From: Alteromonadaceae bacterium Bs31
GTDB taxonomy: Bacteria; Pseudomonadota; Gammaproteobacteria; Pseudomonadales; Cellvibrionaceae
NCBI GenBank assembly: GCA_900177435.1
Contig: FXAI01000011.1
Location: forward strand, 96,658 to 130,457
Reading direction: 5' to 3'
Length of the DNA: 33,800 nucleotides
Position numbers and translations under genes: made by a program. A model generated the notes under the pieces. The model had not been told where the DNA came from. It did not search any database and saw only the letters and a program-made list of their open reading frames with translations. Below, piece after piece: positions 2,751 to 25,582 of the stretch. Position 1 is the first letter of the stretch; the number at the start of each line of letters is the position of its first letter.

Positions 2751-3740
2751 CTAATTATTAATAGTCACATTAACTTCCAGCAAATCTAAACCCACCATAG
2801 TGAGTTCCTCTGTCTCATATTCCTCGTCCAGCAGCGAGCTTGAGTCGAGGCCAATGGCCAGGCCGCTGTCTGGGTAGTTGTCTCTATAGATTCCCGTATC
2901 ACCCGATAGCCTCACATAGGTTTTTAGCGTGCTTGCATTGGAAATATTCTGTAATTGAGGGTGCTGGGTATTGGGCATGGTAACGGTAATGGAATTTCCG
3001 TCAATTTCTATCGTGCCATCACCAAAATAGCCACGGCTACCGTCTGTGGTGTAAACGAAAAGACGTGGGAGTAAAAGAGAAATAAATTCAGTCGATGAAG
3101 CGCTGGTTGGAATAAAGTCGGCGCGAATGGAGATATCTCCAGAGTCCATATCGTCGTTGCCATTCACATCAAAAACAGTTTCCGCAGTGAAACGCGCAGT
3201 GCTGATGTCGTCGAACAAATCCAAAGCACTTAAGCTGTTAGCAAGGTCATTGAAAGTGAAGGTGACGCTCACGCTACCCGTTCTGTTGTTATCTACACAG
3301 CTTCCGTAGGGGAGGTTAACTGAAGGGCTATAGATAAACTCCCGTGTATTTTGAGAGCCCTCAACCGTGCGATTAATAAGCAAATTTGGCCCATCTAAAC
3401 CGAAGGCGAATGTTGCCTTGGTGTTAGAGGCATTTGTAGCGGTGAATGATGAATCGGTATAAGACGTGATCTCAGCAATGGAGGCTACGCCTGCCATGCA
3501 CTGATTGGCGCGGTCTGCACGCACCTCGGTATGGAGGTTTTGATCGATAGTGACATAGTGAAAAGCATCGTATAACCAGTCACCCAAAATTGGACTGTCG
3601 AGTGGCACAATGCCTGTATTTTCTGGTGCTTGAGGCCCCAGATTATCACCACCATTACTGCTTTCTCCGCTACCACCGCCCCCGCAAGCGAGTAATGAAA
3701 GGCAGCATAGGCAAGTTCCCAGTTGTTTGTTCAGCGTCAT
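2751..3740 (-). CDS. Hypothetical lipoprotein with a calcium-loop-like Asp-rich motif
   Basis: I do not recognise this 329-residue protein. It opens with a lipoprotein signal (hydrophobic stretch, then LLAC with Cys19), followed by a Gly/Ser/Asn-rich linker to about residue 45, so it should be a lipid-anchored envelope protein. The body is beta-rich in appearance, with no membrane segments. One segment near residue 195, DVNGNDDMDSGD, resembles the calcium-binding loop of dockerin or EF-hand-like repeats (D-x-N-x-N-D ... D-x-G-D). A single copy is not enough to call a dockerin. The gene is monocistronic, with a terminator downstream and the patatin gene ending 130 bp upstream on the same strand. 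Confidence 0.7.
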   Translation of the reverse strand: MTLNKQLGTCLCCLSLLACGGGGSGESSNGGDNLGPQAPENTGIVPLDSPILGDWLYDAFHYVTIDQNLHTEVRADRANQCMAGVASIAEITSYTDSSFTATNASNTKATFAFGLDGPNLLINRTVEGSQNTREFIYSPSVNLPYGSCVDNNRTGSVSVTFTFNDLANSLSALDLFDDISTARFTAETVFDVNGNDDMDSGDISIRADFIPTSASSTEFISLLLPRLFVYTTDGSRGYFGDGTIEIDGNSITVTMPNTQHPQLQNISNASTLKTYVRLSGDTGIYRDNYPDSGLAIGLDSSSLLDEEYETEELTMVGLDLLEVNVTINN

Positions 3741-3870: not shown

Positions 3871-4704
3871 CTATTTTTCTAGTAGCTGTTGTATTTGTAA
3901 TCTAAACGTTTCAGATGCCGCTTCACCCCGTTTTAATACATCGCCAATCTTATGAAAATCAAAGGCATCAATGCCAGCGGTATCGGGTTTGAAGGTGAGT
4001 TGGGGAGGGTAGTGCTTAAGTTGTTGTTGGTTGTTGTGGTGCAAAATTATATTGAGCGCACCCGCAACCACCTGTGTGGTGTTTGGATTGTTTCTACGGC
4101 TGAGGCTCATAACATCACTGGCAATGCGGAAGTCACAGCTGTGAATATGGTCACAGGGCATGTTGTTAACCGTGCCGCCATCTATAAGCAGTTTGTCTCC
4201 CCGCTGAACGGGAGCGAACACCCCAGGTACTGCCATGCTGGCTTTAACCGCGCTGAGCAAGTCACCGTCGTTCAGTACCAGCTCCTGGCCTGTGTCGAAA
4301 TCGCAGGCAAGAGCCTTGAAGGGAGTGTGCAGCTGGGAAAACTGTTTGTGATTCAGCTCGTAAAAGAGATGCTCGAACAAGCCTTCGGCATCGACAAAAC
4401 CACCCCTTGAAGTGTCGAAGCGAAATACCTTTAGCCATTTCATCAGTTTTTTACGCTTTGCAAACCAGACCTTGGGTTTTTCTCCTGCTGGAAAGAGGTG
4501 GTCCTGCACGCGTGATTCAATATCGTTGCCACTCAGGCCCGCAGCGTAGAGTGAGCCAATAATGGCTCCCATACTGGTGCCAACAATGAGCGTGGGTCTT
4601 ATGCTCAATTCATCCAACACTTTAAGCAGTGCAATATGGGCTAAGCCCTTAACCCCACCGCCACTTAACGCGAGACCAATACTGCGGTTTTTAAGGTTCG
4701 ACAT
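3871..4704 (-). CDS. Patatin-like phospholipase (RssA type)
   Basis: This is a serine lipid hydrolase of the patatin fold, expected to act on phospholipid or acyl-ester substrates. From ATG 4704 (277 aa) it shows the oxyanion loop GGGVKG (residues 15-20), the nucleophile elbow GTSMG with Ser44, and the catalytic Asp in DGG (175-177), so the Ser-Asp dyad is complete. No signal peptide or transmembrane segment is visible, so it is probably cytoplasmic, as in the RssA/YlbK subgroup. The frame stays open to a TTG at 4824, with another ATG at 4743. I prefer 4704 because related proteins start a few residues before the glycine-rich loop, although no start has a strong ribosome site. The family is certain; the exact start is not. 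Confidence 0.85.
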   Translation of the reverse strand: MSNLKNRSIGLALSGGGVKGLAHIALLKVLDELSIRPTLIVGTSMGAIIGSLYAAGLSGNDIESRVQDHLFPAGEKPKVWFAKRKKLMKWLKVFRFDTSRGGFVDAEGLFEHLFYELNHKQFSQLHTPFKALACDFDTGQELVLNDGDLLSAVKASMAVPGVFAPVQRGDKLLIDGGTVNNMPCDHIHSCDFRIASDVMSLSRRNNPNTTQVVAGALNIILHHNNQQQLKHYPPQLTFKPDTAGIDAFDFHKIGDVLKRGEAASETFRLQIQQLLEK

Positions 4705-4841
4705 GGTGCAAAGCTCTAAAAAAGACCCATTTTTGGTGCTCATAGATTGAGCTATTTTGGTGAGTGGTGTCGGATAGTTTGACAAAGTGTAAAGCCTAGA
4801 TTCTAACGCAATCAGGCCAGGCAAGGTTAAATATTAAAATC

Positions 4842-5065: not shown

Positions 5066-8000
5066 TCAGTGTTCTGCTACGAGACGATTTATCAGTTGCC
5101 CCAGCTCTTTGCCATGGGTGGTAAGGCGGGTTTTATGGTCGCCCGGTACCGCTTTTATATCGATATCTATACCCTGCAACTGGTGCCAGCCCAGTGAGGG
5201 GTGCTCTTTACTCCATTCTTCGTTGATCAAGAGGTGAAGTTTTTTGCTAATTGGGCGAGGTTTGTAGCGCAGCAGCAAGTTCAGGTAGATCTGGCTGCCG
5301 TATAAAGCATTTCTTAGATAGAACAATTTTTTATTTATGGGAAAACAGAAAATGAATACTCTGTTAATGGTGGTGCGCAACTCAGATACAAAGCTCTTCA
5401 CTTTACCCGATGCTAATGTTTTAAGAAGATTGACCAGTCGCTTTTTGAGGCGGCGGAGTTTTACTTTACCGGTTTCTAATAGGCGAAATTTATTATTGGG
5501 GTAAGGCGTGTCCATGAGGATGATACACTGTACTTCCTCCCCCGCTTCCAAAAGCTGCCGAGCCAGTTCATAAGTTACTATACCGCCCACGCACTCTCCC
5601 GCCAGAATATAGGGGCCGTGGGGCTGAATTTTTTTAAGATGTTCGATATATTCACGAGCCATATCTTCAACAGATGCGTGAAAATCTTCACCAAGAAAAA
5701 TGCCCCTGGGCCGGAAACCCATTACCGGACGTTGCCCGCCAAGGTTTTGTACCAAGGTACTAAAATAACGATAGGCGTCCTCTTCATAGTTAGACTTGCC
5801 TTCGTGAAAGTATCTGTCTTGGTGTGCACCTGCCACGAGAAAAATAGGCGAGCCTTCACCCCTGGAGTCTATTTCGAACAGTAAGTCGAAGTGGCTCTGT
5901 TCCGACCCGTTTTTTTGATAGCGCGCGCACATTAACGCTATGCTTGGATAGCGAAAAATATCGGCAAGGCCAATAGGTAATTCAAGTACATTCGAAAGTC
6001 TGTTTGCCAGCTGAACGCCTATCAGGGAGTCGCCGCCAAGGTTTAGAAAGCTGTCTTCTGCCGAAATATTTTTACCGAATGTCTCATGCCAGCAAGTGGT
6101 TATTTTTTCTGAAGTACTTTTTCCCTGAGTGCCTGTAGGCGCTGCAGTATTGTCAATAGTGTTACCGGGGCCCACCTTGCGGCTCAAATCAGGCAGCCAA
6201 TATTTTTCCCGTGCGAAGGGGTAGCTTGGTGCCAGTGCCAATGTGTCTTTTGCAATGACCTTATCTTTTACTAAGTCGATAGGAAGGCCTGCACTCCACA
6301 GATTTAGTAGTAGCGTTTGCATGCTTGAGCTTTCCATCTCCATGGTATCGATGGAGGGAATACAATGAATGCCCTGGTGAAATGCCTTTTGTGCTGAGCT
6401 TAGAGAGCAGAGCGCTTTTCCTGGACCAATTTCCAATAATACATTTGCACCGCTGTTGAGAAGCTGAGCAGCGCCATGGTTAAAATCCACTGGCTCCCTT
6501 AAATGTTTTAACCAGTAATCTGATAGCCAGACAGGTGCGTCGCTGCCGCGGTAAGTGCTCGTCATGCTAAGCACTGCAATGTTTGGTTTTTTTAGCTCAA
6601 GGGTATTCAATACCTTTGCAAATTCACTGCTTATGGGCTCAATAAATTTAGAATGGAAAGCCCGGCTGACTTTTAGTTTTACGCAGCGAATTTTATTGTC
6701 TTGCAGGTTAAGCAGTAGCTGGTCTATGTGCTCATGAGTACCCGACAGCACAGTGCTGGCCGGGGCATTTTTAAGTGAAATTTCGAATTTATCTTCGAGA
6801 TAGGGCTCAAGGTCTTCTGCAGAGGCAAGTACACTGAGCATGGCGCTTTCTGCAACCGTTGCCATGAGTTGGCCGCGAAGCGTTACCAGACGTATGGCAT
6901 CGTGCAGTTCAAATACCCCTGCGATTGTTGCTGCTACATATTCTCCCAGGCTGTGGCCAATCATTATAGTTGGCAATACACCGCGATCCATGAGTGTCTT
7001 AGCTAAACAATACTCGGTAATAAACAGCGCGGGTTGTGCGTTTTGCGTTTCTTTAAGTAGTTCTTCAGCGTGTTTACTTGGTTCACCTAAAAGCAGAGCG
7101 CGTATGTCGACGTTGCTGTGCTTGGCCAATTCTCTAAGGCAGGAGTCCAAGTAGCTGCGAAAGGCTGTATCGCTATCATAAAGCGCGCGGGCCATGCCAA
7201 CGCGTTGCATACCTTGCCCGGCGAATAAAAAAGCGACCTTTGGATCTTGCAGTGTCTTTCGCGCTGGGCTAACGACCACAGTACTGTTGTGCTTTGAAAT
7301 AAATCCGCACCAGGGAAAGCGTTTTCTAGCGCTGGCGAGGGTGTAGGATACCGGGCCAAGCTGTTGCGAGTGCTGGATAAACTCCTCAACAGTTTGCTGA
7401 TAGTTTGCAAGCGCCTCGGCTGTTTTTGCGGATACGGGAAAATAGTAATTGTCTGAACTCACAAGGTTATTTTTACGAGCAGCGGGAGGACTGGTCAGCA
7501 CCACATGAGCATTGGTACCACCCACGCCAAAAGCACTAACGCCAACAACCGTTGGTGTATTTTTGTTGCGAAGGTTTATGGTACTGGAATTAAGGTAAAA
7601 GCCGCTATCGTTTAACAGTGTTGTATCTGCTTGTTCTGCATATAAGCAGGGGGGGATGAGTTGGTGTTGTGCAACAAGTACCGATTTAATAAAAGAGGCA
7701 ATTCCCGCTGCTGCGTCTAAATGGCCAACGTTTGCTTTGAGCGTTCCAAGCGGGCGGCTCTTTTCTGTGGATGGAGCAAAAACGGCTTTTAAGCCTTCGA
7801 TTTCTATGGGGTCTCCGAGCTTGGTTCCGGTGCCGTGTGTTTCTATATAGTCGACATCTTCCGGCTTTAAGCCGGAAAGCTCCAAAGCTAAAGAGATAGC
7901 TTGCGCCTGACCGGAAACAGAGGGTGCGGTATAACCTACTTTATCCGCCCCGTCGTTATTCACCGCTGCACCGCGAACAACAGCGAGAATTATATCGCCG

Positions 8001-8776
8001 TCCTCTACGGCTTCTGCATAGCGTTTGAGTGCAACCACGCCAACACCTTCTCCGAATAAAGTGCCGTTGGCTGCTGTGGTGAAGGGACGACAGTGCCCGT
8101 CGGTAGAAAAAATTAAGCCATCTGTGGATTTATATCCGGCGCCGTGGGGTACATTTACACTGGCACCACCGCACAAGGCAATATCACATTGATAGGTTTG
8201 CAATGCTGTGCAGCCCATTTGCACGGCCACTAAGGATGTGGAACAGGCGCTTTGCAGTGTGATGCTAGGCCCTGTTAAATTGAGTTTATAGCTGGTGCGA
8301 CTTGCTAAAAAATCCTTGTCGCTCGCGATCATTTTTTGAAAATCATCGACAGAAAAATCATGGGTGTCGATATGTAATTTATTTAGTAGATAGCGGTTAA
8401 GCCCGCAACCGGCAAATACGCCCACGCTCCCGGGTACTTGATCGGGTATGTAGCAGGCTTTCTCAAGAGCTGTCCAGGCGTGTTGCAGAAATAAGCGTTG
8501 TTGAGGATCTATAAGTTCCGCTTCTGAGGCGGTGTAGCCGAAAAACGCAGCGTCGAAGCGATCGGCATTTGCTAGAATTGCGGCTCGGCGAACATAGCTT
8601 GGGTGGTCTACTATGCTTGCGTCAACACCTGCCTGCACACATTGTTCCCGGCTGATATCAACAATACCGCATTTGCCCGCTACAATTTGAGACCAAAACT
8701 CTTCAATATTGTCTGCCCCAGGAAAAGCACCAGACATCCCGATAACAGCTATATCATTCGCGCGGTAGTTATTCAC
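5066..8776 (-). CDS. Type I polyketide synthase module KS-AT-ACP-TE
   Basis: This 1236-residue single-module PKS should perform one Claisen extension and release the chain. The KS (about 1-430) has Cys178 in SACST, His314 in THGTGT and His352 in NVGHLD, so it is complete. The AT (about 515-830) has Ser609 in GHSLGE and the AFHS motif at 706-709, pointing to malonyl-CoA. No KR, DH or ER lies between AT and ACP, so the beta-keto group should stay unreduced. The ACP carries Ser917 in GGDSL. The C-terminal thioesterase (about 975-1236) has GECVG, putting Cys1062 at the nucleophile site, with Asp1089 and His1214 (GDH) as partners. Translation starts at GTG 8776, overlapping the TAG of the hydrolase by one base. 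It probably takes the chain from the NRPS two genes upstream. Confidence 0.93.
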   Translation of the reverse strand: MNNYRANDIAVIGMSGAFPGADNIEEFWSQIVAGKCGIVDISREQCVQAGVDASIVDHPSYVRRAAILANADRFDAAFFGYTASEAELIDPQQRLFLQHAWTALEKACYIPDQVPGSVGVFAGCGLNRYLLNKLHIDTHDFSVDDFQKMIASDKDFLASRTSYKLNLTGPSITLQSACSTSLVAVQMGCTALQTYQCDIALCGGASVNVPHGAGYKSTDGLIFSTDGHCRPFTTAANGTLFGEGVGVVALKRYAEAVEDGDIILAVVRGAAVNNDGADKVGYTAPSVSGQAQAISLALELSGLKPEDVDYIETHGTGTKLGDPIEIEGLKAVFAPSTEKSRPLGTLKANVGHLDAAAGIASFIKSVLVAQHQLIPPCLYAEQADTTLLNDSGFYLNSSTINLRNKNTPTVVGVSAFGVGGTNAHVVLTSPPAARKNNLVSSDNYYFPVSAKTAEALANYQQTVEEFIQHSQQLGPVSYTLASARKRFPWCGFISKHNSTVVVSPARKTLQDPKVAFLFAGQGMQRVGMARALYDSDTAFRSYLDSCLRELAKHSNVDIRALLLGEPSKHAEELLKETQNAQPALFITEYCLAKTLMDRGVLPTIMIGHSLGEYVAATIAGVFELHDAIRLVTLRGQLMATVAESAMLSVLASAEDLEPYLEDKFEISLKNAPASTVLSGTHEHIDQLLLNLQDNKIRCVKLKVSRAFHSKFIEPISSEFAKVLNTLELKKPNIAVLSMTSTYRGSDAPVWLSDYWLKHLREPVDFNHGAAQLLNSGANVLLEIGPGKALCSLSSAQKAFHQGIHCIPSIDTMEMESSSMQTLLLNLWSAGLPIDLVKDKVIAKDTLALAPSYPFAREKYWLPDLSRKVGPGNTIDNTAAPTGTQGKSTSEKITTCWHETFGKNISAEDSFLNLGGDSLIGVQLANRLSNVLELPIGLADIFRYPSIALMCARYQKNGSEQSHFDLLFEIDSRGEGSPIFLVAGAHQDRYFHEGKSNYEEDAYRYFSTLVQNLGGQRPVMGFRPRGIFLGEDFHASVEDMAREYIEHLKKIQPHGPYILAGECVGGIVTYELARQLLEAGEEVQCIILMDTPYPNNKFRLLETGKVKLRRLKKRLVNLLKTLASGKVKSFVSELRTTINRVFIFCFPINKKLFYLRNALYGSQIYLNLLLRYKPRPISKKLHLLINEEWSKEHPSLGWHQLQGIDIDIKAVPGDHKTRLTTHGKELGQLINRLVAEH

Positions 8777-9627
8777 TAGTTGGCCACCGAGGCTACTTGC
8801 CGAAATAGCCAGTCAAGAGAGTGTTTGTTGACGGCAGCCTTGGAGATATTATGGCCGGCGTCTTCCAGGATTGTGAGTTTGACAGCCTTGTTTCCCGCTT
8901 GATTTAAAGCCTGGGACATTTCCACAGAATTTGAGACGGGTGCGATGCTGTCTTTCGCGCCGTGGAAAACCCAGAGAGGTGTATTTATTACGCTGGCGAT
9001 ACTGGGGTCGCTGCGGCCATTCATAATAAGCCCAGCAGCGAACAAATCGGGAAACCTGTAGAGCATGCTCCAGGCGCCAGTTGCACCCATTGAGCCGCCG
9101 ACAATGTAGATGCGTTGTTCGTCTATGGGGTAGCTATCGAGCAACTCTTTAAGTAGTGCCCTTAGGGCCTGTTCTCGCCAGCCTATTGTGAAATCCTCAA
9201 AATGAATATTTGTGAAAGGTGGTTTGATTGCCGGACTGTCGATCCACTCCAAGTGTTTAGGGCACTGTGGTGCGAGAATAAACGATGAAAGTTCCATATG
9301 AGATTCAGCCATAGCTACTAATTTACGTACGCTTGCATCCAATTGGCTTAAGTTATTATCGCCGCGCCCATAGGCGGTTTGCAGTACCAGAATTAATGGT
9401 TTTTTTGTTTTTTCTGAGATGTCCTTTGGTACGAAAAAACGATAGGGAAGGGTGTGAGCTGGCTTGTCGAAGGTAAAGGTGTGAGCCTGCATTTTTACCG
9501 CTAGCGCTAGGGCGCTGTTCGGTATTTGCTGTGCGCGGGTGTAGCGGCTAAGCGCCAGTAAGGCAAGCACGCATGCCAGGCAAATAAAAGCAAAAATTAA
9601 GACCATGTGCAGTTTACCTATTTTCAT
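8776..9627 (-). CDS. Membrane-anchored alpha/beta hydrolase (esterase/PHB depolymerase-like)
   Basis: The 283-residue protein starts at ATG 9627, where a GAGGA ribosome site sits at the right distance; an upstream in-frame start at 9663 would overlap the NRPS end. Residues about 8-28 form one membrane segment, so the catalytic domain probably faces the periplasm. The hydrolase domain has GGSMG with Ser179, Asp226 (HGAKDS) and His259 (DAGH), a complete triad in the layout of the LpqC/feruloyl-esterase/poly-hydroxybutyrate-depolymerase group. It lies between the NRPS and PKS genes, 10 nt after one and overlapping the other by one base, so it belongs to the pathway. It could trim, release or activate the product outside the cytoplasm. 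Its substrate cannot be read from sequence. Confidence 0.85.
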   Translation of the reverse strand: MKIGKLHMVLIFAFICLACVLALLALSRYTRAQQIPNSALALAVKMQAHTFTFDKPAHTLPYRFFVPKDISEKTKKPLILVLQTAYGRGDNNLSQLDASVRKLVAMAESHMELSSFILAPQCPKHLEWIDSPAIKPPFTNIHFEDFTIGWREQALRALLKELLDSYPIDEQRIYIVGGSMGATGAWSMLYRFPDLFAAGLIMNGRSDPSIASVINTPLWVFHGAKDSIAPVSNSVEMSQALNQAGNKAVKLTILEDAGHNISKAAVNKHSLDWLFRQVASVAN

Positions 9628-9637
9628 TTTTTCCTCA

Positions 9638-12600
9638 TTAGCGCATTTTCCTGCGCTTTGCACTGGGTGCTGAGAAGCCCGTATCTAATGCCGCACGCAT
9701 GCGTGAAGAACGGTCGTCGTCAAGGGGGATTTTAGTCACGGGTTTTCCTTCCAGGTAGGAAGAAAGTGCAGAGACAGTGTTATAACGAAATAGGTCGACG
9801 CTCTTTAAATGTGGAAAGTTTGCATGCAAGCGATTGAACAGTGTCATCAGCATGAAGGAATCTCCGCCGAGATCGAAAAAAGATTTGTCCGGGTCCAGCG
9901 TTTCGCAGTGAAGCAATTCCCGCCATTCATTCATTAGTAAGTTGTAACTGTCCCCTTTAGGTAATGCCGTTTTATCGGGCTTTATGGTACTTAAATCTAT
10001 TTTCGGCAAGGCGGAACGTTGAATTTTTCCGCTGGACCCCAAAGGCATTGTGTCAAGGTTTCGAAAATAACGTGGAACCATGTAGGTGGGCAGGCACTTG
10101 CTTAGTTGCTCTCTAAGCTGACTTACTTCGACCTCTTGCTCACCGCTTGGAGTGAAATAAGCCACCAGGTGTTTTAGTTCCCCCTCTTGCTGAATTACCA
10201 CCGCCGCATTTGAAATTGCCTCTTGGGCTATCAAGGCGGATTCAATGTCGCCAAGCTCAATACGAAGGCCATTTATCTTAATTTGAAAATCTTTTCTACC
10301 GATGTACTCCAGCACGCCTTCGTCGGTCCAGCGAGCGTAGTCGCCGGTGCGATAGACTTTTCCTGCGTCGAAGGGGTTTTCTATAAAACGCTCGGTAGTG
10401 CGTGCCTGGTCGTTAATATAGCCCTGCGCGACTTGCACGCCGCCAATCCAGAGTTCGCCGATTATGCCGATGGGGGCGAGTTTTGCGTTTTCGTCAACCA
10501 CATAAAGAGGCGTATTGGCCACGGGAGCGCCGATGGGTAAATGCTTGCGTTGATCGTTTTTACATTGCCAATAAGTGACGTCTACTGCGGCCTCTGTTGG
10601 GCCGTAAAGATTGTGTAGCGCTACTCCTGGGTAGCAGGAAAAAAACTGCTCCTCTTGCGGCTGGCTGAGTTCTTCTCCGCTACACACTACCGCTCTGAGT
10701 TTACTGCCTGCATCTTGATTCGCTTCAAGAAACAGAGACAGCATGGAAGGCACGAAATGCGTTATGGCGATAGAGTAGCGCCGCATCTGTTCCGCGATTT
10801 TATAGGGGTCTTTATGGGAATCGGCTTGCGCAATGACCAGAGTAGCACCCACTTGCAGTGGCCAAAAAAGCTCCCAAACGGACACGTCAAAGCTGTAGGG
10901 GGTTTTTTGCAGTACCCGCTCGCCTTCTGATAAATGAAGATAAGTTTGCATCCAGAGCAGGCGATTGACGATACCAGCGTGACGATTAACTACGCCCTTT
11001 GGCTCTCCGGTTGAGCCAGAGGTAAATATCACATAGGCCGGGTCATCGGGGTCTATTTTTAGCGGATCTAAGGTGCTTGGGTAGCAGCGCAGGGTATCGA
11101 GAGAAAATTGTATTGCTTTGGAATTGGCCGTATCTTCTGGTTCTTTTACTTTCGTATAAATGCAATGGGAGGCTTCGGCACGTAGCAGAATTGTTTTAAC
11201 GCGTTCGCCAGGAAGATCTGTATCAATGGGCAGGTAAGCACAACCGGCTTTGATTACACCGTAAATGGCAACCAGCATTTCCACACTTCGGGTGCAGTAA
11301 ACGGCTATTACTGCTCGCCTCTTTGCCCCTTGGCTAAGTAGCATGTTTGCGCATTGATTAGTGAGTTGGTCGAACTGCTTATAAGTGAGCGTCGTATCGC
11401 CAAAAATGACTGCTTCGGTATCGGGGCTGCGTTGTAACTGCTGAGCAAACAAGCCTGGTAGGGTAAGGCTGCTTAGGTCCTCTCTGTCAAAGTTGGTGGA
11501 GCTATCGTTAAACTGTTGAAGTTTTTGTTGGTCATCTAAGGGGCAAATGTCCAGGTGGCTTAGCGTATCCATCCGTTTCGTGGCAATTTGCTCTAGTAAA
11601 GAAATATAGGACTTTACAAAGCGCTGAGCCATTGCCTTCGGCCAGAAATGTCCGTCACATTCTAACTGCCCCGTAATGGTGTGTTCTGTTTTCCAGAGCC
11701 TTAAAAATCCATCCAATTGCGCTTGTACGCCGCCTAAATGCAAAGCTTTGCATTGTACGCCCAGTAGATTTAATTGCATGGGTGCTTCGAAGGTATAGCC
11801 AATATTGTAAAGTTGTCTTTCTAGGCCAGATGAAGATACGGATTTAGTAATGAGGGTGGCGGGCAGTTCCTGGTGCCTGTGAGCGCCCAGTAATGCTTTA
11901 CGCGTTGCGCGAAGAATGTCGGAAAAACAAAGTGCGTCAGCAAGTGAAACAGTTAAAGGTAGAGTGTTAACAAAACAGCTAAGGCTATTCTTGAATTCTG
12001 CTTGCTTTCGGTTTGAAAGCGGCACTGCCAATGCGAATTGTTTTTGTCCGCTATACTTGGCAAGCAAGTAGTAATAGGCGGCTAATAAAACAATAAATTC
12101 ATCACTTTTGTGTTCTTTGCAGTAAACCCTGATGTCGGCAGTAAGAGAGGCAGAAAGCCTTAGATCTTGTTCGAAATACTCACCACTCCCTGTTTCCGCC
12201 AGCTCAATTTTTCTATCGATATTGGCCAGCTTCGATTTCCAGTATTCTACGGCCTTTAGTGAGCTTGCGCCTTGTAACCAATGCTTTTGCCAATTGGAGT
12301 AACTTAAGGCTTTATCTGAGCCAAGAGCTTGAGCAACTTCCGGCATACCGTTATACGCCTCGGAAATCAGGTCAGCCAATAAGTTCTTGCTGTGCAGATC
12401 GATAATAATGTGGTGAACAACGATTGAGATATAGCTGAGTGTAGTGCCTTTCAGCGCCACGTGCACCAGCCGCACAAGCGGGCCCATGGCGAGAGACATT
12501 TCCTGATAGGAGTGCTTTTGCAAGTAGCTCAGAGCTTCTGTTTCGTCGCTACAAATTTCTGTAATTTTTTGGATACAATGTGAGTCAGGCATTTGATAAA

Positions 12601-12805
12601 CGCCTGTATCATCAGCTTCAAAACGTACATTAAAGGCGGGTATTTCCCTGGTGATACCTTCCAGGCAGGAAATGAACCGGTCTATATCGAGCTCATTGCA
12701 GCGAAAGGCAGATACCACTAGATAAGCCGGGCCTTTTCCCTGCTGATCGAGTAACCAGAATTGTTTTTGTATCTCGCTAATGGCGTAGCGTTTATTTAGC
12801 GGCAT
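9638..12805 (-). CDS. Nonribosomal peptide synthetase, C-A-PCP, predicted serine-activating
   Basis: A single NRPS module of 1055 residues. The condensation domain (about 1-430) has HHIIIDL at 131-137, with both His and the Asp of HHxxxDG but Leu instead of Gly. The adenylation domain (about 440-930) has TSGSTGEPKG, YGPTEAA, YRTGD and Lys927 in GSSGK. Placing the pocket residues by hand on the standard scheme gives D640 V641 W644 H683 V707 S709 L733 V741 D742 K927, i.e. DVWHVSLVDK. This differs by one residue from the EntF serine code as I recall it. The PCP has Ser983 in GGDSF. There is no thioesterase, so the aminoacyl chain must pass to another protein, most likely the PKS. An N-terminal C domain implies an acyl donor, perhaps the free ACP of the operon. 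It overlaps the PP-loop gene by 14 bp. Confidence 0.93.
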   Translation of the reverse strand: MPLNKRYAISEIQKQFWLLDQQGKGPAYLVVSAFRCNELDIDRFISCLEGITREIPAFNVRFEADDTGVYQMPDSHCIQKITEICSDETEALSYLQKHSYQEMSLAMGPLVRLVHVALKGTTLSYISIVVHHIIIDLHSKNLLADLISEAYNGMPEVAQALGSDKALSYSNWQKHWLQGASSLKAVEYWKSKLANIDRKIELAETGSGEYFEQDLRLSASLTADIRVYCKEHKSDEFIVLLAAYYYLLAKYSGQKQFALAVPLSNRKQAEFKNSLSCFVNTLPLTVSLADALCFSDILRATRKALLGAHRHQELPATLITKSVSSSGLERQLYNIGYTFEAPMQLNLLGVQCKALHLGGVQAQLDGFLRLWKTEHTITGQLECDGHFWPKAMAQRFVKSYISLLEQIATKRMDTLSHLDICPLDDQQKLQQFNDSSTNFDREDLSSLTLPGLFAQQLQRSPDTEAVIFGDTTLTYKQFDQLTNQCANMLLSQGAKRRAVIAVYCTRSVEMLVAIYGVIKAGCAYLPIDTDLPGERVKTILLRAEASHCIYTKVKEPEDTANSKAIQFSLDTLRCYPSTLDPLKIDPDDPAYVIFTSGSTGEPKGVVNRHAGIVNRLLWMQTYLHLSEGERVLQKTPYSFDVSVWELFWPLQVGATLVIAQADSHKDPYKIAEQMRRYSIAITHFVPSMLSLFLEANQDAGSKLRAVVCSGEELSQPQEEQFFSCYPGVALHNLYGPTEAAVDVTYWQCKNDQRKHLPIGAPVANTPLYVVDENAKLAPIGIIGELWIGGVQVAQGYINDQARTTERFIENPFDAGKVYRTGDYARWTDEGVLEYIGRKDFQIKINGLRIELGDIESALIAQEAISNAAVVIQQEGELKHLVAYFTPSGEQEVEVSQLREQLSKCLPTYMVPRYFRNLDTMPLGSSGKIQRSALPKIDLSTIKPDKTALPKGDSYNLLMNEWRELLHCETLDPDKSFFDLGGDSFMLMTLFNRLHANFPHLKSVDLFRYNTVSALSSYLEGKPVTKIPLDDDRSSRMRAALDTGFSAPSAKRRKMR

Positions 12806-13841
12806 AGTCCAACTTAACTCTTTCTATGGCATCATCATCGATGCTTAGCCTTTCTTTAATTACAGGTATTAGGTTTTCTGGCCTTTGGTTTAGCTTATCC
12901 ATGGCTTCGCTCCTGCTTAACAGGTTTTCGCGAATAAGGTGGCTTAGCTCCAATTCGTAGGGGTTGTAGTCAAATATTTTTTCATGCACGTGGTTGCTGA
13001 ATGTGTTTAGCATGCAATTGCTGGAACAGCCATCCACATCTCCAGGGCTAGTCCAGCCGAGCTTTCGAACCTGCTCAAGAATCGCCTGTTCGCTTATATT
13101 TTCAATACAAAGAATGTTGACGGTATGGGGGTAGTTTAAAGTATCTTCCAGCGATGCCGAGTTGATGCTCAGATAGTTATCTACACTGGGGCCCACCAGC
13201 TCGCGTAGTTTTTGCAAAGAGGCCTGCCGCGACTCGGCGAGAAATTTCTGATTGTTTTTATAAATAATGGAATTTAGCGGTATTTGGCCTAGCGTGAATC
13301 CCGCCAGAATAAATGGAATGTGTTTTTCCAGCGCCATTTTTAATGCGGTAGTGTTCACCATGGAAATACAAGAGTTACACACCGCAGATATACGGCTCAG
13401 CGTATTCTTGTTATAAATTGCATTTTCCACGCTGGCCTTTGTAATAGCGTTAAAGTGCTTGACGTTAGGCTTAAACACTACGTGGTCTACACCTAGGTTG
13501 TTTGTTACTGTTCGAATATTGCCCCAGGCTGCAGGTGAAATAAAATCGTTATCCAGAGTAAAGGCTAGAACCCGTAGTTTGTACTTTTCTATGGCAAGTT
13601 GCAGGGTATAAGTGCTGTCTTTCCCTCCGCTGTAACAGACAATAGCATCGTAATCACCTTTACATTGATTGCCGTCGAATAGTTCATCTATCTTCTTTTT
13701 CGCGTCCTTTATCATTTGATCAGTATCCACGTACTGATTACTTTTGTTGCAATAACTGCAGACGCCGTTCGCGTCAAATTTTATGCGAGGGAAGCTCTCG
13801 GACAATACGCACTTAGTACAACGTTTTCTTGTAAGGCTCAT
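12792..13841 (-). CDS. PP-loop ATPase, N-acetyl sugar amidotransferase-like
   Basis: The 349-residue protein starts with a probable zinc knuckle (Cys8, Cys11, Cys28, Cys31) and then the PP-loop SGGKDST (71-77), which binds ATP and adenylates a carbonyl oxygen. More Cys pairs follow (CNSC near 160 and GCSSNC near 280). This layout matches the WbpG/N-acetyl sugar amidotransferase family, which makes acetamidino sugars using ammonia from a partner glutaminase. No sugar pathway surrounds it; the partners here are an AsnB-type amidotransferase, an ACP and an NRPS. I infer that it may amidate or amidinate a pathway intermediate. Sulfur transfer is an alternative given the Cys pairs. The start ATG overlaps the ACP stop as ATGA, showing translational coupling. 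Confidence 0.8.
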   Translation of the reverse strand: MSLTRKRCTKCVLSESFPRIKFDANGVCSYCNKSNQYVDTDQMIKDAKKKIDELFDGNQCKGDYDAIVCYSGGKDSTYTLQLAIEKYKLRVLAFTLDNDFISPAAWGNIRTVTNNLGVDHVVFKPNVKHFNAITKASVENAIYNKNTLSRISAVCNSCISMVNTTALKMALEKHIPFILAGFTLGQIPLNSIIYKNNQKFLAESRQASLQKLRELVGPSVDNYLSINSASLEDTLNYPHTVNILCIENISEQAILEQVRKLGWTSPGDVDGCSSNCMLNTFSNHVHEKIFDYNPYELELSHLIRENLLSRSEAMDKLNQRPENLIPVIKERLSIDDDAIERVKLDYAAK

Positions 13842-14089
13842 GTGGCTCGTTTCCTCTCAGCAAAATCAATCATTTTGTTGACTGATCCGAAGTTGTCTCG
13901 AATTAAATCTGCCTCTTCGATAGTTATCTCAAAAGATTTTTCCAGGAAGCTGCTTATTTCGACCAGGCCAAAGGAATCAATGATGCCCTCGTCAATTAAT
14001 GATTGGTCTACAGGGATTTCCTCAATATCTACCATGTAGTTATCTGAAATAAAGTGAAGTAGTGATTTTTTTGCTTCGCTTTTATTCAT
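13838..14089 (-). CDS. Free-standing acyl carrier protein
   Basis: An 83-residue acidic helical protein of normal ACP length. Ser39 in the DSF motif (GIIDSFGLVEI) is the phosphopantetheine site. Such discrete carriers hold an acyl or aminoacyl group for tailoring or loading. In this operon it lies between the amidotransferase and the PP-loop gene and could present the substrate those enzymes act on, or feed the acyl donor to the NRPS condensation domain. It begins 27 nt after the asnB-like stop and overlaps the next gene by 4 bp. No phosphopantetheinyl transferase is present in the window, so activation must come from elsewhere. Confidence 0.88.
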   Translation of the reverse strand: MNKSEAKKSLLHFISDNYMVDIEEIPVDQSLIDEGIIDSFGLVEISSFLEKSFEITIEEADLIRDNFGSVNKMIDFAERKRAT

Positions 14090-14116
14090 GCTCAGTTCTC
14101 TGTTTGCTTGATTATG

Positions 14117-16090
14117 CTATTCGGAAATATCGACAGTGCATCGGCTGTGGTCGATATTTAGGATTCGTGGTGTGTTTATCCAGTGCTGGCAGGCTTGTGT
14201 GGAAAGCATGTAAATAAATAGCATGTTGTCCCGGTAGCCGACCTGCTGCGGTACACCCTTGCTAAACTTTTTCAGAAAACGCGCAACCTGTTTTTGATCA
14301 AACAGCCCGTAGGATGCAATTTTTTCTGGAGATAATAATTCTTCGGCACTGTCTACCAGTGAGTTGCCTTTAAAAAAAGCAGCTATATCCGGAGCCATGT
14401 AGGGGCGTTTGGGGCGATTGATGACGCTGTCTGGAATGCAAGCTTTGAACGCTTCTTTTAGTATGTGTTTTTGTGAAAACCCATTTAATTTATGTTCGTC
14501 CTGCAGTGAGAATACGAAATCTATAAGTTCGTGGTCGAGAAAGGGGTAGCGCCCTTCGATACTATTGCCAAGCGCCATGCGATCCCCTTGAGAGGAGAGT
14601 AAATAGCCTTGTAGAAGCGTTTTAATCTCCAGGAAGGAATTCTTTTGCAGTAAGCTCCAATCAGAATAGTTACTTGGCAGCATGTCTGAAAGCTTATGAT
14701 TGAGTGCTTCCTGGTCGCTGCTTATTGCGAGGTCCTTGTTAAGAAAGTTTTTTATGGCTCTGTTGTTACTCATGCGAATATTTAAACCCGCAAAATTGTT
14801 GTCAAAACTTTCTAAAAAACCTTCGTAGTACATCTTGATAAGACCAAACTTCCTGGGGTCGGCGTAGTGGTCAAGGTGTGGGTAGAGCGCTTTAATGGCC
14901 TGGTCTATTGCAGGGTTGTTGCCCGAGTCTTTCCAGTTTTGAAGTATTTTTAACTCTTTAAAGGTGTCGTAGCCAAATAATATTTCATCGGCACCTTCAC
15001 CCGTGAGTACCACTACGATGTCGGTTTCCCGAACTTTTTGAGACAGTTTGTACAGTGGAATGGGCGCTGTGCGAAACAGCGGTCGTTCACAGTGGTAGAC
15101 GGCCTCGAGGAAGTTGTCGCTAATTGCCTGGTGGTTGATGGAAACCGATTCGTGCTGAGAGTTTATGGCTTCACTCACCAGTCGTTGGTATTCGCCTTCG
15201 TCGAATTGGGCATCGTCAAACTCAACAGAAAAGGTGCGAAATTGTTCCTGTTTTTGCTGTTTAGTCAGGTACGCGATTACCGAAGAATCAATGCCGCCGC
15301 TTAAATAGGCGCCCACAGGTACATCGGCGCGCAAGCGCAGCTCTACACTGCGTGCCAGATGTTCTTTAAACGCTTCTTTAGCCTCGGAGAAATTGAGTTT
15401 TGAGGCATTGTGTTGAGCTTGACCGATTTCGTAATAACGATGGCTTTCAGTTCGGCGGCTGTCTTTGTAGATTTCCACGCTGCCAGAGCAAAGGCTGCGA
15501 ATATTTTTATATACAGTATCGCTGCCCAGTGTGTTCCACAGTAACGCATGCTCGAAAAGGTGTTGAGGGTTAAACTGTCTTTCGCCAGGGAAAAGGGCAT
15601 CGAAGGCCTTCATCTCCGAGCTGAAATATACCGCACCCTGGTGTTCCCATATATAGAGTGGGCGCATGCCCAGGCGATCTCGCGCCACTATCAGCTCTTT
15701 TTTCTGTTTATCCCAAAGTAGGAAAGCAAATTGTCCATTGAGCTTGGAAAGGCAGTCGATTCCATCTCGTTCATAAAGTTTAAGCACGACTTCGGTATCA
15801 CAGTGGCTGCGAAATACCGCACCGCCCGCTTCCAGCTCGCGACGTAATTCATAGTGGTTGTAAATCTCGCCGTTATACACCAGTACACAGCGTTCGGAGT
15901 TAAGCGGTTGGTCTCCCCCTGTAACATCGAAAATGGAGAGGCGAGAGTGGCCAAGCGCTATACCTGGAGCGCTATAAATTCCCCAGCCATCGGGGCCGCG
16001 GTGCGATAGCTGTGCGACGCCCTTACAAGCTTGCTCTTTTAGTTCGGCCGGTGGGCCGTCTGCTTGAATTATTCCGAATATTCCACACAC
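14117..16090 (-). CDS. Asparagine synthase (glutamine-hydrolysing) family amidotransferase
   Basis: The first gene of the biosynthetic operon encodes 657 residues. Translation starts at GTG 16090 with an AGAGG site upstream, placing Cys2 (MCGIFGI) as the N-terminal glutaminase nucleophile after Met removal. The glutaminase half runs to about 210. The synthetase half has the ATP-binding SGGIDSS (264-270) and LTGEGADE. Retention of Cys2 argues against a beta-lactam synthetase, the AsnB relatives that lose glutaminase function. It should make an amide from a carboxylate, glutamine and ATP. AsnB-like proteins are also standard members of exosortase-type EPS loci (exosortase A system-associated amidotransferases), and such a locus lies 3.7 kb away on the other strand. 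The true acceptor is unknown; housekeeping asparagine synthesis is unlikely in this setting. Confidence 0.88.
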   Translation of the reverse strand: MCGIFGIIQADGPPAELKEQACKGVAQLSHRGPDGWGIYSAPGIALGHSRLSIFDVTGGDQPLNSERCVLVYNGEIYNHYELRRELEAGGAVFRSHCDTEVVLKLYERDGIDCLSKLNGQFAFLLWDKQKKELIVARDRLGMRPLYIWEHQGAVYFSSEMKAFDALFPGERQFNPQHLFEHALLWNTLGSDTVYKNIRSLCSGSVEIYKDSRRTESHRYYEIGQAQHNASKLNFSEAKEAFKEHLARSVELRLRADVPVGAYLSGGIDSSVIAYLTKQQKQEQFRTFSVEFDDAQFDEGEYQRLVSEAINSQHESVSINHQAISDNFLEAVYHCERPLFRTAPIPLYKLSQKVRETDIVVVLTGEGADEILFGYDTFKELKILQNWKDSGNNPAIDQAIKALYPHLDHYADPRKFGLIKMYYEGFLESFDNNFAGLNIRMSNNRAIKNFLNKDLAISSDQEALNHKLSDMLPSNYSDWSLLQKNSFLEIKTLLQGYLLSSQGDRMALGNSIEGRYPFLDHELIDFVFSLQDEHKLNGFSQKHILKEAFKACIPDSVINRPKRPYMAPDIAAFFKGNSLVDSAEELLSPEKIASYGLFDQKQVARFLKKFSKGVPQQVGYRDNMLFIYMLSTQACQHWINTPRILNIDHSRCTVDISE

Positions 16091-16760: not shown

Positions 16761-17399
16761 TCAGGAGGCCTCTTCGCTGCATCCCTTTTCGCCTTCAGGG
16801 AGTCGTTCGAGGCGAACGCCGCCAATGCTTATATCCAGTTTTCCTTCGCTACTAAGCATGAAGCCATTGACTTTGCTTAAATCAAAATCGTCGCTTTGAA
16901 AGCAGTTGAGTGGGATTGGAAAGAGAAACCATTCGCCGGTTTTCTTTTTGCGTAGTTGTCTGCCAATGCTGATCTCTGCGCGGCAAGGCCAGTGACAATC
17001 TATAGCGGCTTTTACATCTTTATTGGGTTTTTTATTGAGCTTTAAATCGAAGGTTAGTGCAGCCACATCTTTTGCGACTTTCAGGTCCACATCGCTGCCA
17101 ACCAACTTTACTTCCCCTCGTTCTTTCTTGCGTGACCAGACTACGCGCAGTGCATCACCGGAGCCATTGAAATTGTCTGAACTGAGTTCCACTTTTCCGT
17201 TTTTAGATTTACCACTTTTATTTTCCACGTTAACGCCCCATTGGCCGGGGTCACCCAACTGTATAAACCAGTTGCCCTGGGTTTCGCCATTGTGGAAATA
17301 GAAAAAGCGAGGGTCTAAGGGCTCGTCTGCGTGAGTGCTGTAAACATTTAGGCTGATAAGTAGTGTAAGTAGCCATTTTGTGTGTGAGCGTATGTGCAT
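16761..17399 (-). CDS. Secreted protein resembling the ExoP C-terminal galactose-binding-like domain
   Basis: The 212-residue product has a signal peptide (MHIRSHTKWLLTLLISLNVYSTHA, cleavage near THA-D) and a good AGGAG ribosome site before ATG 17399. The remainder looks like one beta-sandwich with the pattern I associate with the galactose-binding-like C-terminal domain of ExoP-type GH3 glucosidases: a conserved Trp-x-V start, GDALRVVW, an LTFDLK strand, a Cys pair in CHWPC, then WFLFPIPLNCF and a final GGVRLE strand. Here it stands alone, without a catalytic domain. It follows a GH43 lipoprotein by 102 bp on the same strand and may help bind the same glycan. No enzyme activity is predicted. 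The family call is from memory of the pattern. Confidence 0.65.
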   Translation of the reverse strand: MHIRSHTKWLLTLLISLNVYSTHADEPLDPRFFYFHNGETQGNWFIQLGDPGQWGVNVENKSGKSKNGKVELSSDNFNGSGDALRVVWSRKKERGEVKLVGSDVDLKVAKDVAALTFDLKLNKKPNKDVKAAIDCHWPCRAEISIGRQLRKKKTGEWFLFPIPLNCFQSDDFDLSKVNGFMLSSEGKLDISIGGVRLERLPEGEKGCSEEAS

Positions 17400-17501
17400 G
17401 AAAGTCTCCTGTTGTTTTTATATCTGTTCGCTGGAGCGTAATCCCTGCCGAGTTTGGTTGTCCCAAGTATTCGTTGTAGCAAAATATTCTTAGATTTAGT
17501 T

Positions 17502-18614
17502 CTAGTCAGCGAGATAGGCATCAATGGTTTCAATGCTGCCATCTTGTTTGTGCTGTAGCTCTGTCATTTTGATATTGCGAAGGTGGTCAATGCCACCTGA
17601 AAGCTGAGTATCATGGTAAAGCAGAAACCATTTTTCCTGAAATTTTACAATTGAGTGGTGTGTTGTCCACCCTAGTACCGGCTCTAAAATCGTACCACGC
17701 CATGTGAATGGGCCATAAGGTTTATCGGCGGTAGCGTATTGAATAGTGTGTCCTTCTCCCGTTGACCAGCTTAGATAATAGCGCCCTTGAAACTTGTGTA
17801 GCCAGGGAGCTTCGAAGAACATCCGCGCCTTATCGCCAAAGTTAATCAGGTTGCCGTTCTCGTCTAAAATGGGGATGGTTGTCAGCGGGTGGGCAAGGCT
17901 CACCATATCTTCAGCGAGTTGTGCCATTCTGGGCAGTAATGTGGGTGACTTGTCTTTTGGGTAAGAGTTTTCTGCTGAATATTGACCTGTTTGCCAGTGT
18001 TGTAGTTGTCCGCCGCGAATACCCCCTAAGTAGAGGTAATAGCTGCCATCGTCGTCTTTAAAAACTGCCGGGTCAATACTGTAGGAGCCTGCTATGGGCT
18101 CATTTAGTGGCTTGAATGGGCCTTGAGGTTTGCTGGCAGTGGCGACACCAATGCGGAATAGCCCATGTTGATCTTTTGCAGGAAAATACAGGTAGTAAGT
18201 ACCGTCTTTTTCTGCCGCATCCGGTGCCCACATCTGTTTGCTTGCCCAGGGAACTTCACCGAGGTGCAGCGCTGGGCCGTGATCTGTGACTGCGCCACCG
18301 ACAGTTTCGAGAGAGAAAACATGGTAGTCCTCCATGTTGTAATGTTGCCCTTCCGCTCCCGGTGCACTTTGGGTGTCGATGTCATGAGATGGGTAGATAA
18401 ATAATTTGCCTTCGAAAACATGGGCCGATGGGTCTGCTGTGTAAATATGACTGACAAGAGCCTGGTCTTTGAAGTGCCTGGCGGGGAGTGGAGCAGGGGT
18501 TTCTCTGCTTTCTTCCCTTGCTATGCTGCTGGCGCTAGGCAAGTCCGTGTTATCGCAACTGCTAATTGCTAAGGTGCACAGGAATAAAATAGAGTATTTC
18601 AAGTGGTTCGCCAT
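17502..18614 (-). CDS. Glycoside hydrolase family 43 lipoprotein
   Basis: The frame is open to 18668, but ATG 18614 gives a 370-residue protein that starts with a lipoprotein signal (lipobox ISSC, Cys20), so I use that. The five-bladed propeller of GH43 is indicated by three acidic residues in the expected order: Asp61 in YTADPSAHVFEGK (base), Asp181 in YSIDPAVF (pKa modulator) and Glu268 in FFEAPWLHK (acid). Blade motifs such as YYLYFPA, YYLYLGG and YYLSWSTG recur. GH43 enzymes cleave arabinose, xylose or galactose linkages; the specificity here is not readable. The lipid anchor suggests action at the cell surface or in the periplasm. A terminator separates it from the upstream PEP-CTERM gene, so it needs its own promoter within about 75 bp. 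Confidence 0.88.
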   Translation of the reverse strand: MANHLKYSILFLCTLAISSCDNTDLPSASSIAREESRETPAPLPARHFKDQALVSHIYTADPSAHVFEGKLFIYPSHDIDTQSAPGAEGQHYNMEDYHVFSLETVGGAVTDHGPALHLGEVPWASKQMWAPDAAEKDGTYYLYFPAKDQHGLFRIGVATASKPQGPFKPLNEPIAGSYSIDPAVFKDDDGSYYLYLGGIRGGQLQHWQTGQYSAENSYPKDKSPTLLPRMAQLAEDMVSLAHPLTTIPILDENGNLINFGDKARMFFEAPWLHKFQGRYYLSWSTGEGHTIQYATADKPYGPFTWRGTILEPVLGWTTHHSIVKFQEKWFLLYHDTQLSGGIDHLRNIKMTELQHKQDGSIETIDAYLAD

Positions 18615-18687
18615 AGTGTTATCCGCTGCATTATTATTGTTTAAGTTGCCTGGGGTTATTGTAACCACGGAGTCAAATTTTGGGCAA

Positions 18688-18731: not shown

Positions 18732-19565
18732 TTATTTCTTGGTTTTTTTTCTGATGGAGCCAGCAGCTAGCAGGGCGGTACCAAACAGAACCAGAGTGCC
18801 AGGAAGAGGAACCGGGTTAACGCTTACGGAAATACCATCGAGTTTCCAGAAATCGTTGCCGTCAGTAAACGAAACACCTTGCTCGTCAGTAATCCCGGTA
18901 AGGGTGCTGTTGTAGGCGCCCACTAACCAGTATTGTGAAAGCAGGCCGCCTTCGTTAACGGCTTCCGGACTATTCAGGTTGTCGATTTGATAATTACCGA
19001 TACCTGTCCAGCTACTACCTAAGGTATTCCAGGAGCCGCCTACAAAACTGTCTGGTGTGGCTGAGCCGGTGTAGGCCAGGATAGAGGATTCGCTGTTAGA
19101 AGCGTCAACCGTGCTGTCGCCTCGGTCTGCTCCGCGCCAGCCTGATGAAATAGCGTCCAGGCTTACGGCTTCGGTGAAGCTCAGAAGAAGCATGTCATAG
19201 GCGTTACCGGACCAGCGTTGTTCGTTGTTGTCTATGGCGTGCTCTCCTCCGCCTAGCGCAAACTCGGCTCCCAAGCCGCCGCCCCATTGGCCAACATCTA
19301 CTGGTGTAATGGAGTTGCTATAGCTGGTAAAGCCCACTACGCTAAGGCCAAGGTCTGCACTGCCACTGCTGGCGTAAGAGTAGACATACTCGCTGCCGTA
19401 CACGTCGCCCAGGAAAATTTTATCTATCAACTCAACCATTCCGCCCCAGCCATCGGCATCGGATACACTTGTGGGTTGTGTTAAGTCGAAATCGGCGGTG
19501 AGCGCATTGGCCAAGCATGGAGCAAAGAAAGCCAGTGCTGCTATTTTAAGTGATTTGCGTAACAT
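18732..19565 (-). CDS. PEP-CTERM-type (VPLPG) exosortase substrate, surface protein
   Basis: This 277-residue exported protein has an N-terminal signal (MLRKSLKIAALAFFAPCLANA) and a C-terminal tripartite sorting signal: VPLPG, a hydrophobic stretch (TLVLFGTALLAAG), then RKKTKK. That is the layout processed by exosortases. The central part has the segments YDMLLLSF, VSLDAISSGW and SSILAYTG, which recall the exosortase-dependent surface protein family XDP1, a link I hold with moderate confidence. Two ATGs lie in tandem (19568 and 19565); the second is better spaced from AGGAG. It is divergent from rfbA and has a sigma-54-like promoter 90-105 bp upstream of the start. It is probably released into or attached to the extracellular polysaccharide made by the neighbouring locus. 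Confidence 0.85.
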   Translation of the reverse strand: MLRKSLKIAALAFFAPCLANALTADFDLTQPTSVSDADGWGGMVELIDKIFLGDVYGSEYVYSYASSGSADLGLSVVGFTSYSNSITPVDVGQWGGGLGAEFALGGGEHAIDNNEQRWSGNAYDMLLLSFTEAVSLDAISSGWRGADRGDSTVDASNSESSILAYTGSATPDSFVGGSWNTLGSSWTGIGNYQIDNLNSPEAVNEGGLLSQYWLVGAYNSTLTGITDEQGVSFTDGNDFWKLDGISVSVNPVPLPGTLVLFGTALLAAGSIRKKTKK

Positions 19566-19654
19566 CATTAATCTCCTGAATCTTAACGCTAAATTTTGTT
19601 CACACTCATGTGTGGTAAAACTGATGCACTAATGAATACATTTGCGATCGTTGA

Positions 19655-21266: not shown

Positions 21267-21270
21267 AGCA

Positions 21271-22134: not shown

Positions 22135-22155
22135 CCTGTTAATTAGACTTTTATT

Positions 22156-24699: not shown

Positions 24700-24729
24700 A
24701 TTTAGAAGGTTGGTAAAGGGTTTGTTTAT

Positions 24730-25563: not shown

Positions 25564-25582
25564 GGGCGTTCTTTATTAAGGT

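Follow-up and report, generated by a model that had tools for sequence, protein, structure and literature searches.

What does an operon make in which an amidotransferase, a free carrier protein, and a PP-loop enzyme precede a short assembly line? The question is raised by a 33,800-nucleotide stretch of the Alteromonadaceae bacterium Bs31 genome (contig FXAI01000011.1; this whole stretch is hereafter the window), which carries six open reading frames (ORFs) between positions 5066 and 16090, all on the minus strand. In the direction of transcription these encode an AsnB-type amidotransferase (P0006), an acyl carrier protein (ACP; P0005), a PP-loop enzyme (P0004), a non-ribosomal peptide synthetase (NRPS) module (P0003), a hydrolase (P0002), and a polyketide synthase (PKS) module (P0001). 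The six-gene operon is a member of a conserved family and not an isolated oddity, and it is more than a chance assembly because other phyla carry this set of genes too. With a confidence slightly better than even, we read the sequences as a hybrid assembly line in which a thioamide-capped starter would feed a serine NRPS module and a PKS module. The key step is likely a CtaC-like thioamide formation, since P0004 has the cysteine triad of CtaC, TtcA, and TtuA.

Domains of the operon proteins were assigned with Pfam and NCBIfam. P0006 (14117–16090) is a glutamine-dependent amidotransferase (GATase_7, 1.6e-43; Asn_synthase, 6.5e-84) with the glutaminase Cys right behind the start codon and the PP-loop SGGIDSS; it scores 460.1 bits against TIGR01536 (above the cut-off of 267.1) and 381.1 bits against the XrtA amidotransferase family TIGR03108, where the cut-off of 816.9 is not reached. 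P0005 (13838–14089; PF00550, 4.2e-6; carrier Ser in GIIDSFGL) lies between the genes for AsnB and the PP-loop enzyme, overlaps the latter by 4 bp, and is the separate carrier that the sequence-only reading of this DNA had assigned to the upstream genes. The C-A-T module P0003 (9638–12805) has the condensation motif HHIIIDL and the A-domain code DVWHVSLVDK, which code tables assign to serine, the amino acid named before. P0001 (5066–8776) is a KS-AT-T-TE module with the ketosynthase motifs ACSTS, HGTGT, and NVGH, the acyltransferase motifs GHSLG and RAFH (presumably malonyl type), and a thioesterase (TE) in which Cys replaces Ser as the nucleophile (GECVG); Pfam and NCBIfam reported no reductive domain in it. 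The motif GGDS is present in both carriers of the NRPS and PKS modules, and C, A, T, KS, AT, T, and TE were all found with active-site motifs, confirming the earlier view of one NRPS module followed by one unreduced PKS module.

The alpha/beta hydrolase P0002 (8776–9663; Peptidase_S9/Abhydrolase in Pfam) has an N-terminal membrane anchor, as judged by eye, and its nearest solved sequence is the esterase 3doh (5e-32); its AlphaFold model has a pLDDT of 41.9, too low for use. Its likely start is the ATG at 9627, on which part of the earlier claim of six coupled genes depends: the ORFs and the spacings of +27, −4, −14, and, at the last junction, −1 bp are as described, and the +10-bp gap between the NRPS and hydrolase genes requires this internal ATG, the GTG at 9663 giving a 26-bp overlap with the NRPS gene. 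The 5.0-Mb host genome (46 contigs) has a single full-length Condensation domain, that of the operon, with one partial match elsewhere, and contains a 253-aa phosphopantetheinyl transferase frame. Composition gave no clear sign of recent transfer. A defence system was considered and dropped, as PADLOC gave no match for P0004, P0005, or P0006.

P0004 (12792–13841), a predicted Fe-S carrier-dependent thioamide synthetase, matched no Pfam family, and its best NCBIfam family by far is TIGR03573 (WbuX/NASAT; 141.2 bits, cut-off of 203.2 not reached). We scanned a genome collection with one genome per species, using a search pattern that included the SGGKDS motif, and confirmed at least 533 relatives of P0004; the best 80 by similarity (loci are given L numbers below) were aligned with P0004 and four NRPS-fused domains to give 85 rows. 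All 85 have an N-terminal tetracysteine (C8, C11, C28, and C31; 13749–13820), the PP-loop SGGKDS (residues 71–76; 13614–13631), which was part of the search pattern, and a CxxC (C155 and C158; 13368–13379). C276, in SSNC (13014–13016), is present in 83/83 complete rows, and two further rows are cut by contig ends before this position. C155 and C158, together with C276 as the third, are predicted Fe-S ligands.

This layout resembles that of CtaC, the Fe-S PP-loop thioamide synthetase of closthioamide. In CtaC, the exchanges D77A and S78A abolished activity, and C154A, C157A, and C284A diminished it (PMC6772006). P0004 and CtaC share the PP-loop Asp-Ser (D75 and S76 in P0004) and three Fe-S-type cysteines, CxxC...C, at similar spacing (80 and 118 in P0004; 77 and 127 in CtaC). 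HHalign aligned the CxxC of P0004 onto the CxxC of the host TtcA (probability 79, E 1.6e-5), with the third Cys, C276, outside the alignment. In a tree of 46 proteins, one branch (support 97/99) unites 25 proteins with the triad, among them the NRPS-embedded ones described below. The sequence-only reading offered no account of the PP-loop step and missed that P0004 has its cysteines arranged as in Fe-S thiolases and CtaC.

Amidine formation by WbuX chemistry was our first idea, which was demoted after the cysteine triad and the CtaC residues and is kept as the main rival, one that we consider unlikely. P0004 would then retain NASAT chemistry and convert a carrier-bound amide to an amidine with ammonia from the AsnB glutaminase, giving an amidine-capped acyl-serine ketide. 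The TIGR03573 match speaks for this, although at a score below the family cut-off, and so does the structure: the AlphaFold model of P0004 (pLDDT 92.9) is nearest in fold to NASAT 8wex (TM 0.68–0.70), which is also closest in sequence. A glutaminase-bearing AsnB is adjacent in 7/7 close loci, and comparable cysteines occur in L133, whose neighbours are HisH and HisF. Yet C155, C158, and C276 are invariant in the P0004 set, whereas a CxxC after the PP-loop is absent from 20 of the 22 sugar-amidotransferase-like proteins in a first sample (present in L009 and L133) and from 5/9 in a Bacillota-side sample (present in L183–L186). 8wex apparently lacks the C276 position, in an alignment that is weak (5.7 bits). 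The folds ranked next after 8wex, namely YcfA, the sulfurtransferase 5ztb, NcsA, TtuA, and, close to them, LarE (TM about 0.3–0.4), speak for the thioamide reading. HisH/HisF partners, which accompany the NASAT-type L132, L133, L135, and L136, were not found among the window genes scanned or, by eye, in the layouts of L033–L039, where no model search was run. Two further observations concern these samples: L133, L184, and L186 represent a sugar-type PP-loop branch with CWHC, one of them with the HisH/HisF neighbours, and L183 is a PP-loop protein with CxxC between radical-SAM-like and ThiF-like frames (by eye), a possible sulfur-carrier link.

Several points weigh against a thioamide-capped starter. 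L133, L142, and L143 have similar cysteines and sit outside the P0004 branch, and L184 and L186 of the Bacillota sample, which also have them, group with L133; the triad may therefore be ancestral, and alone it is no proof of thiolation. When such rows were added in a second tree, the P0004 group, taken without L185, was supported at 55/66 instead of 97/99, and L185, a Bacillota-side protein with an NRPS-like frame adjacent (by eye), joined the P0004 side at 92/82, although its branch is long. Selecting the best 80 of 533 relatives by similarity to P0004 biases the alignment toward shared residues. The closest solved protein by sequence and fold, 8wex, is a sugar amidotransferase with amidine chemistry; all other fold matches have low TM, about 0.3–0.4 of the query, and the first 50 also include the amide-forming carbapenam synthetase and AsnB. 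The likeness to CtaC is one of residue positions, taken from the published description of that enzyme. Pseudoalteromonas, the genus of one close relative, grows in air, and the host of the operon probably does too. CtaC is reported to be fully inactive in air, with homologues chiefly from anaerobes (PMC6772006). Finally, no gene in the operon was seen to load the ACP.

PP-loop enzymes also catalyse nitrile- or thiocarboxylate-type reactions, and P0004 could carry out such another ATP-driven change of a carrier-bound acyl group, for example a QueC-like nitrile or a thiocarboxylate formation. A plasmid relative, L134, is annotated as 7-cyano-7-deazaguanine synthase. This protein has no CxxC, and the cysteine layout of P0004 fits a thioamide synthetase, so we regard this alternative as very improbable.

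The surroundings of P0004 relatives bear on its function. The operon is rare close to the host and conserved far from it. In a set of 97 genomes including the host, 13 had a match at E ≤0.001, but no close one came from outside the host; the next by E-value is 30% identical. The genome collection yielded at least seven close relatives, 51–59% identical over the best segment and 49–59% over the alignment, in five phyla; the other 73 of the best 80 are at most 45% identical to P0004. The close relatives come from Pseudoalteromonas, Marinilabiliaceae, two Spirochaetota, Desulfobacterales, Candidatus Thiomargarita, and Chitinispirillaceae, and more may exist beyond the seven listed. Five of the seven are metagenome-assembled genome records, in which mis-binning of any single contig is possible. 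Among the matches listed, the AsnB, ACP, and PP-loop genes are adjacent and in the same order in 7/7 close loci, with the ACP relatives (70–95 bits) always directly between the other two. A serine NRPS module (DVWH[FI]SL[VI]DK) and a KS-AT PKS accompany them in 6/7, in varying gene order; the Thiomargarita locus (L037) shows neither in the 14.8 kb covered of its 27-kb contig.

This co-occurrence, which the sequence-only reading had proposed to look for, reveals the conserved family that it had missed. Members differ in detail. L035, L038, and L039 have extra A-domain codes of glycine type, L033 and L034 carry additional modules with codes matched to no amino acid, and relatives of the hydrolase P0002 are found in L034, L035, L039, and, weakly, L038. 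A TE cysteine was rejected as a family trait: Cys is present in the window, L036, and L038, and Ser in L033, L035, and L039, and the TE nucleophile motif was not found in the L034 PKS.

The genes beside the best 80 relatives suggest what P0004 acts on. Neighbours within 4 kb were counted wherever a locus extended 5 kb or more in both directions, which was so for 45 of the 80: 23 have AsnB alone, 14 a NadE-like ligase alone, none both, and eight neither (Fisher p=1.9e-6). With wider limits, both occur in two or three loci (p 1.2e-5 to 1.2e-4); all these p-values are too small, as related loci are non-independent. That two different ligases, both using ammonia, stand in for one another is consistent with an amide being formed ahead of the PP-loop step.

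L025 (11424–19472), L029 (11187–15329), and L030 (2–1555) encode NRPS A domains that contain, towards their C-terminal end, a PP-loop domain bearing this triad. In Roseovarius L025 and in L029 the code is DLTK[VI]GE[VI]G, which is of asparagine type, and the AsnB query had no match in the stretches around these two loci. There, Asn itself would bring the carboxamide, which would again be the substrate of the PP-loop domain. In Streptomyces NBC_01216 (L026), asnB is again followed by an NRPS gene and by a PP-loop protein whose annotation includes a condensation domain. The embedded-domain NRPS locus of L025 and L027 has probably moved recently, because it is plasmid-borne in two genera and its neighbouring genes share identical protein accessions.

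From these parts, a sequence of steps can be proposed for the thioamide-capped starter line. The free ACP would carry an acyl group with a second carboxylate, for which malonyl is the simplest candidate (a guess by analogy with malonamoyl systems). AsnB would amidate its free carboxylate at the expense of glutamine and ATP, as its family and gene order suggest, and the PP-loop enzyme, with a 4Fe-4S cluster held by the triad, would adenylate the amide oxygen and swap in sulfur. On the domain reading, the C domain would transfer this acyl group to the NRPS-bound serine, and the KS-AT-ACP module would append one malonate without reduction. The Cys-nucleophile TE would free the chain either as an acid or in cyclic form, for instance as a serine lactone. 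The simplest product would be thiomalonamoyl-serine extended by one malonate, as acid or lactone. Least securely, the membrane-anchored hydrolase and the exopolysaccharide neighbours hint that the product may be used at the cell surface, perhaps in polysaccharide decoration. In this light, the chemistry in the sequence-only reading was right in part.

That reading had also missed an exosortase exopolysaccharide locus beside the operon. It includes, on the minus strand, an exosortase-dependent surface protein XDP1 (18732–19568; NF041927, 139.6 bits, cut-off of 125 passed), and, on the plus strand, dTDP-rhamnose-type genes for a nucleotidyl transferase, epimerase, reductase, and dehydratase (19843–23220; Pfam); genes for the exopolysaccharide initiating transferase WcaJ, a GT2, and PssD-like and PssE-like proteins (23233–26532; Pfam and NCBIfam, PssD and PssE below cut-off); exosortase XrtD (26529–28094; TIGR04152, 475.9 bits, cut-off of 400 passed); a PrsT-like TPR protein (28113–30518; TIGR02917, 258.5 bits, below cut-off); and a Wzz-type chain-length protein (31135–32736; TIGR03007, 232 bits, below cut-off). 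The interval separating the operon from XDP1 contains Exop_C galactose-binding-like and GH43 genes (16761–18668). At its downstream end, the operon is closely followed on the same strand by a patatin-like phospholipase gene (3871–4824), and the window also encodes a 329-aa protein matched to no family (2751–3740) and a beta-propeller protein (PF09826; 335–2548).

Polysaccharide genes are found near the window operon and 5/7 close relatives (L033, L034, L036, L038, and L039), with two proteins confirmed by Pfam near each of the five; this count needed wider stretches and the Pfam search of two proteins per locus, the single-sequence search of narrower stretches giving 2/7. In L037, no polysaccharide gene was seen by eye in its stretch. 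In 4/8 genomes (window, L033, L036, and L038), the PP-loop gene has a Bac_transf gene no more than 25 kb away (chance 3.5e-5, with the 25-kb limit chosen after the places were known). Of the 80 loci, 46 span 15 kb or more, and among these the single-sequence search found a polysaccharide family in 22 and an exosortase in 11, compared with 0/20 control stretches, all drawn from the host genome (p 4.8e-5). Among loci with A-embedded domains, L025 has polysaccharide neighbours by annotation, and L029 and L030 have none among ten genes scanned. Gene context links the PP-loop cassette to cell-surface sugars; attachment of the product to them is putative. An exosortase as a required partner was rejected: TIGR02602 matched in 5/8 genomes, over cut-off in 2/8, and not at all in the genomes of L033, L034, and L038.

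These neighbourhoods also allow a different division of labour, in which a building block of a polysaccharide would be modified by the PP-loop enzyme together with AsnB and the ACP, while the NRPS/PKS genes form a separate line that happens to lie in this operon. A related cassette in exosortase loci without NRPS/PKS agrees with it: L040–L112 combine an ACP, an AMP ligase (TIGR03098-like), a triad PP-loop enzyme, and AsnB or a NadE-like ligase, the last two nearly exclusive, and part of these loci contain exosortase genes. However, the serine NRPS and KS-AT PKS stay alongside the trio in 6/7 close loci despite changing gene order and a spread over five phyla, and related domains are found both inside NRPS A domains and in the protein annotated with a condensation domain, all of which makes this division improbable. 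On one Spirochaetes contig (L035/L129), a cassette of the NRPS/PKS type lies about 14 kb from one of the ligase type (the latter seen by eye in the L035 flank).

A broader proposal, tentative and on balance doubtful, is that a cassette of AsnB or NadE-like ligase, ACP, and Fe-S PP-loop enzyme makes carrier-bound primary thioamides that decorate exopolysaccharide, working in polysaccharide loci with a simple AMP ligase, as in many exosortase systems, or with a full NRPS/PKS line, as in the family of this operon. The 2019 paper on CtaC calls thioamides exceedingly rare among non-ribosomal products; CtaC is the first enzyme proven to make them, and homologues of it near NRPSs are already reported there (PMC6772006). 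If our reading of the operon is correct, its few genes would suffice to build a primary thioamide on a serine-ketide, in a pathway that has a relative in Pseudoalteromonas, and AsnB would be the amide supplier of a thioamide synthetase. The AsnB, ACP, and ligase genes of exosortase loci would gain a testable function, and thioamide decoration of the sugar coat, if true, would explain part of them.

The operon can be compared with several known systems. Malonamoyl starter systems, such as those of glutarimide polyketides and oxytetracycline, likewise use an AsnB-type amidotransferase and a free ACP; we know of no thiolase-like PP-loop enzyme in them. The tRNA thiolases TtcA, TtuA, and NcsA, as well as LarE, share with P0004 the PP-loop, the CxxC and third Cys, and fold matches; their substrates are tRNA or a cofactor, and no carrier protein is involved. 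The exosortase-associated cassette likewise brings together an amide-forming ligase, an ACP, and a PP-loop enzyme with the triad, but has a stand-alone AMP ligase in place of the NRPS/PKS. The NASAT enzymes (WbuX, WbpG, and LpNASAT 8wex) are alike in overall fold, tetracysteine, SGGxDS PP-loop, and polysaccharide neighbourhood, and differ in the later CxxC, rare in the first sample, and in their N-acetyl sugar substrates. NASAT converts a sugar acetamido group to an acetamidino group, and the tetracysteine binds zinc in LpNASAT (PMC10607449); WbuX occurs with HisH/HisF in a Sphingomonas exopolysaccharide locus (PMC11340318).

We recognised no published cluster with AsnB, ACP, PP-loop enzyme, serine NRPS, and PKS in searches of the open-licence PMC literature, which did not extend to the clusters with CtaC homologues in Figure 3 and the supplement of PMC6772006; within this scope, the earlier statement that no characterised cluster has exactly this set is uncontradicted. 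A search aimed at CtaC in a Bacillota-side sample of 398 genomes gave matches in 11, none identifiable as CtaC. CtaC is reported to accept its substrate only when carrier-bound and to work with a free carrier protein (PMC6772006), and the P0004 gene adjoins a free ACP gene. CtaC there acts on the backbone amides of a poly-beta-alanine chain, independently of an NRPS, whereas in the operon AsnB stands ahead of the PP-loop enzyme, suggesting a terminal primary amide that would feed an NRPS and a PKS.

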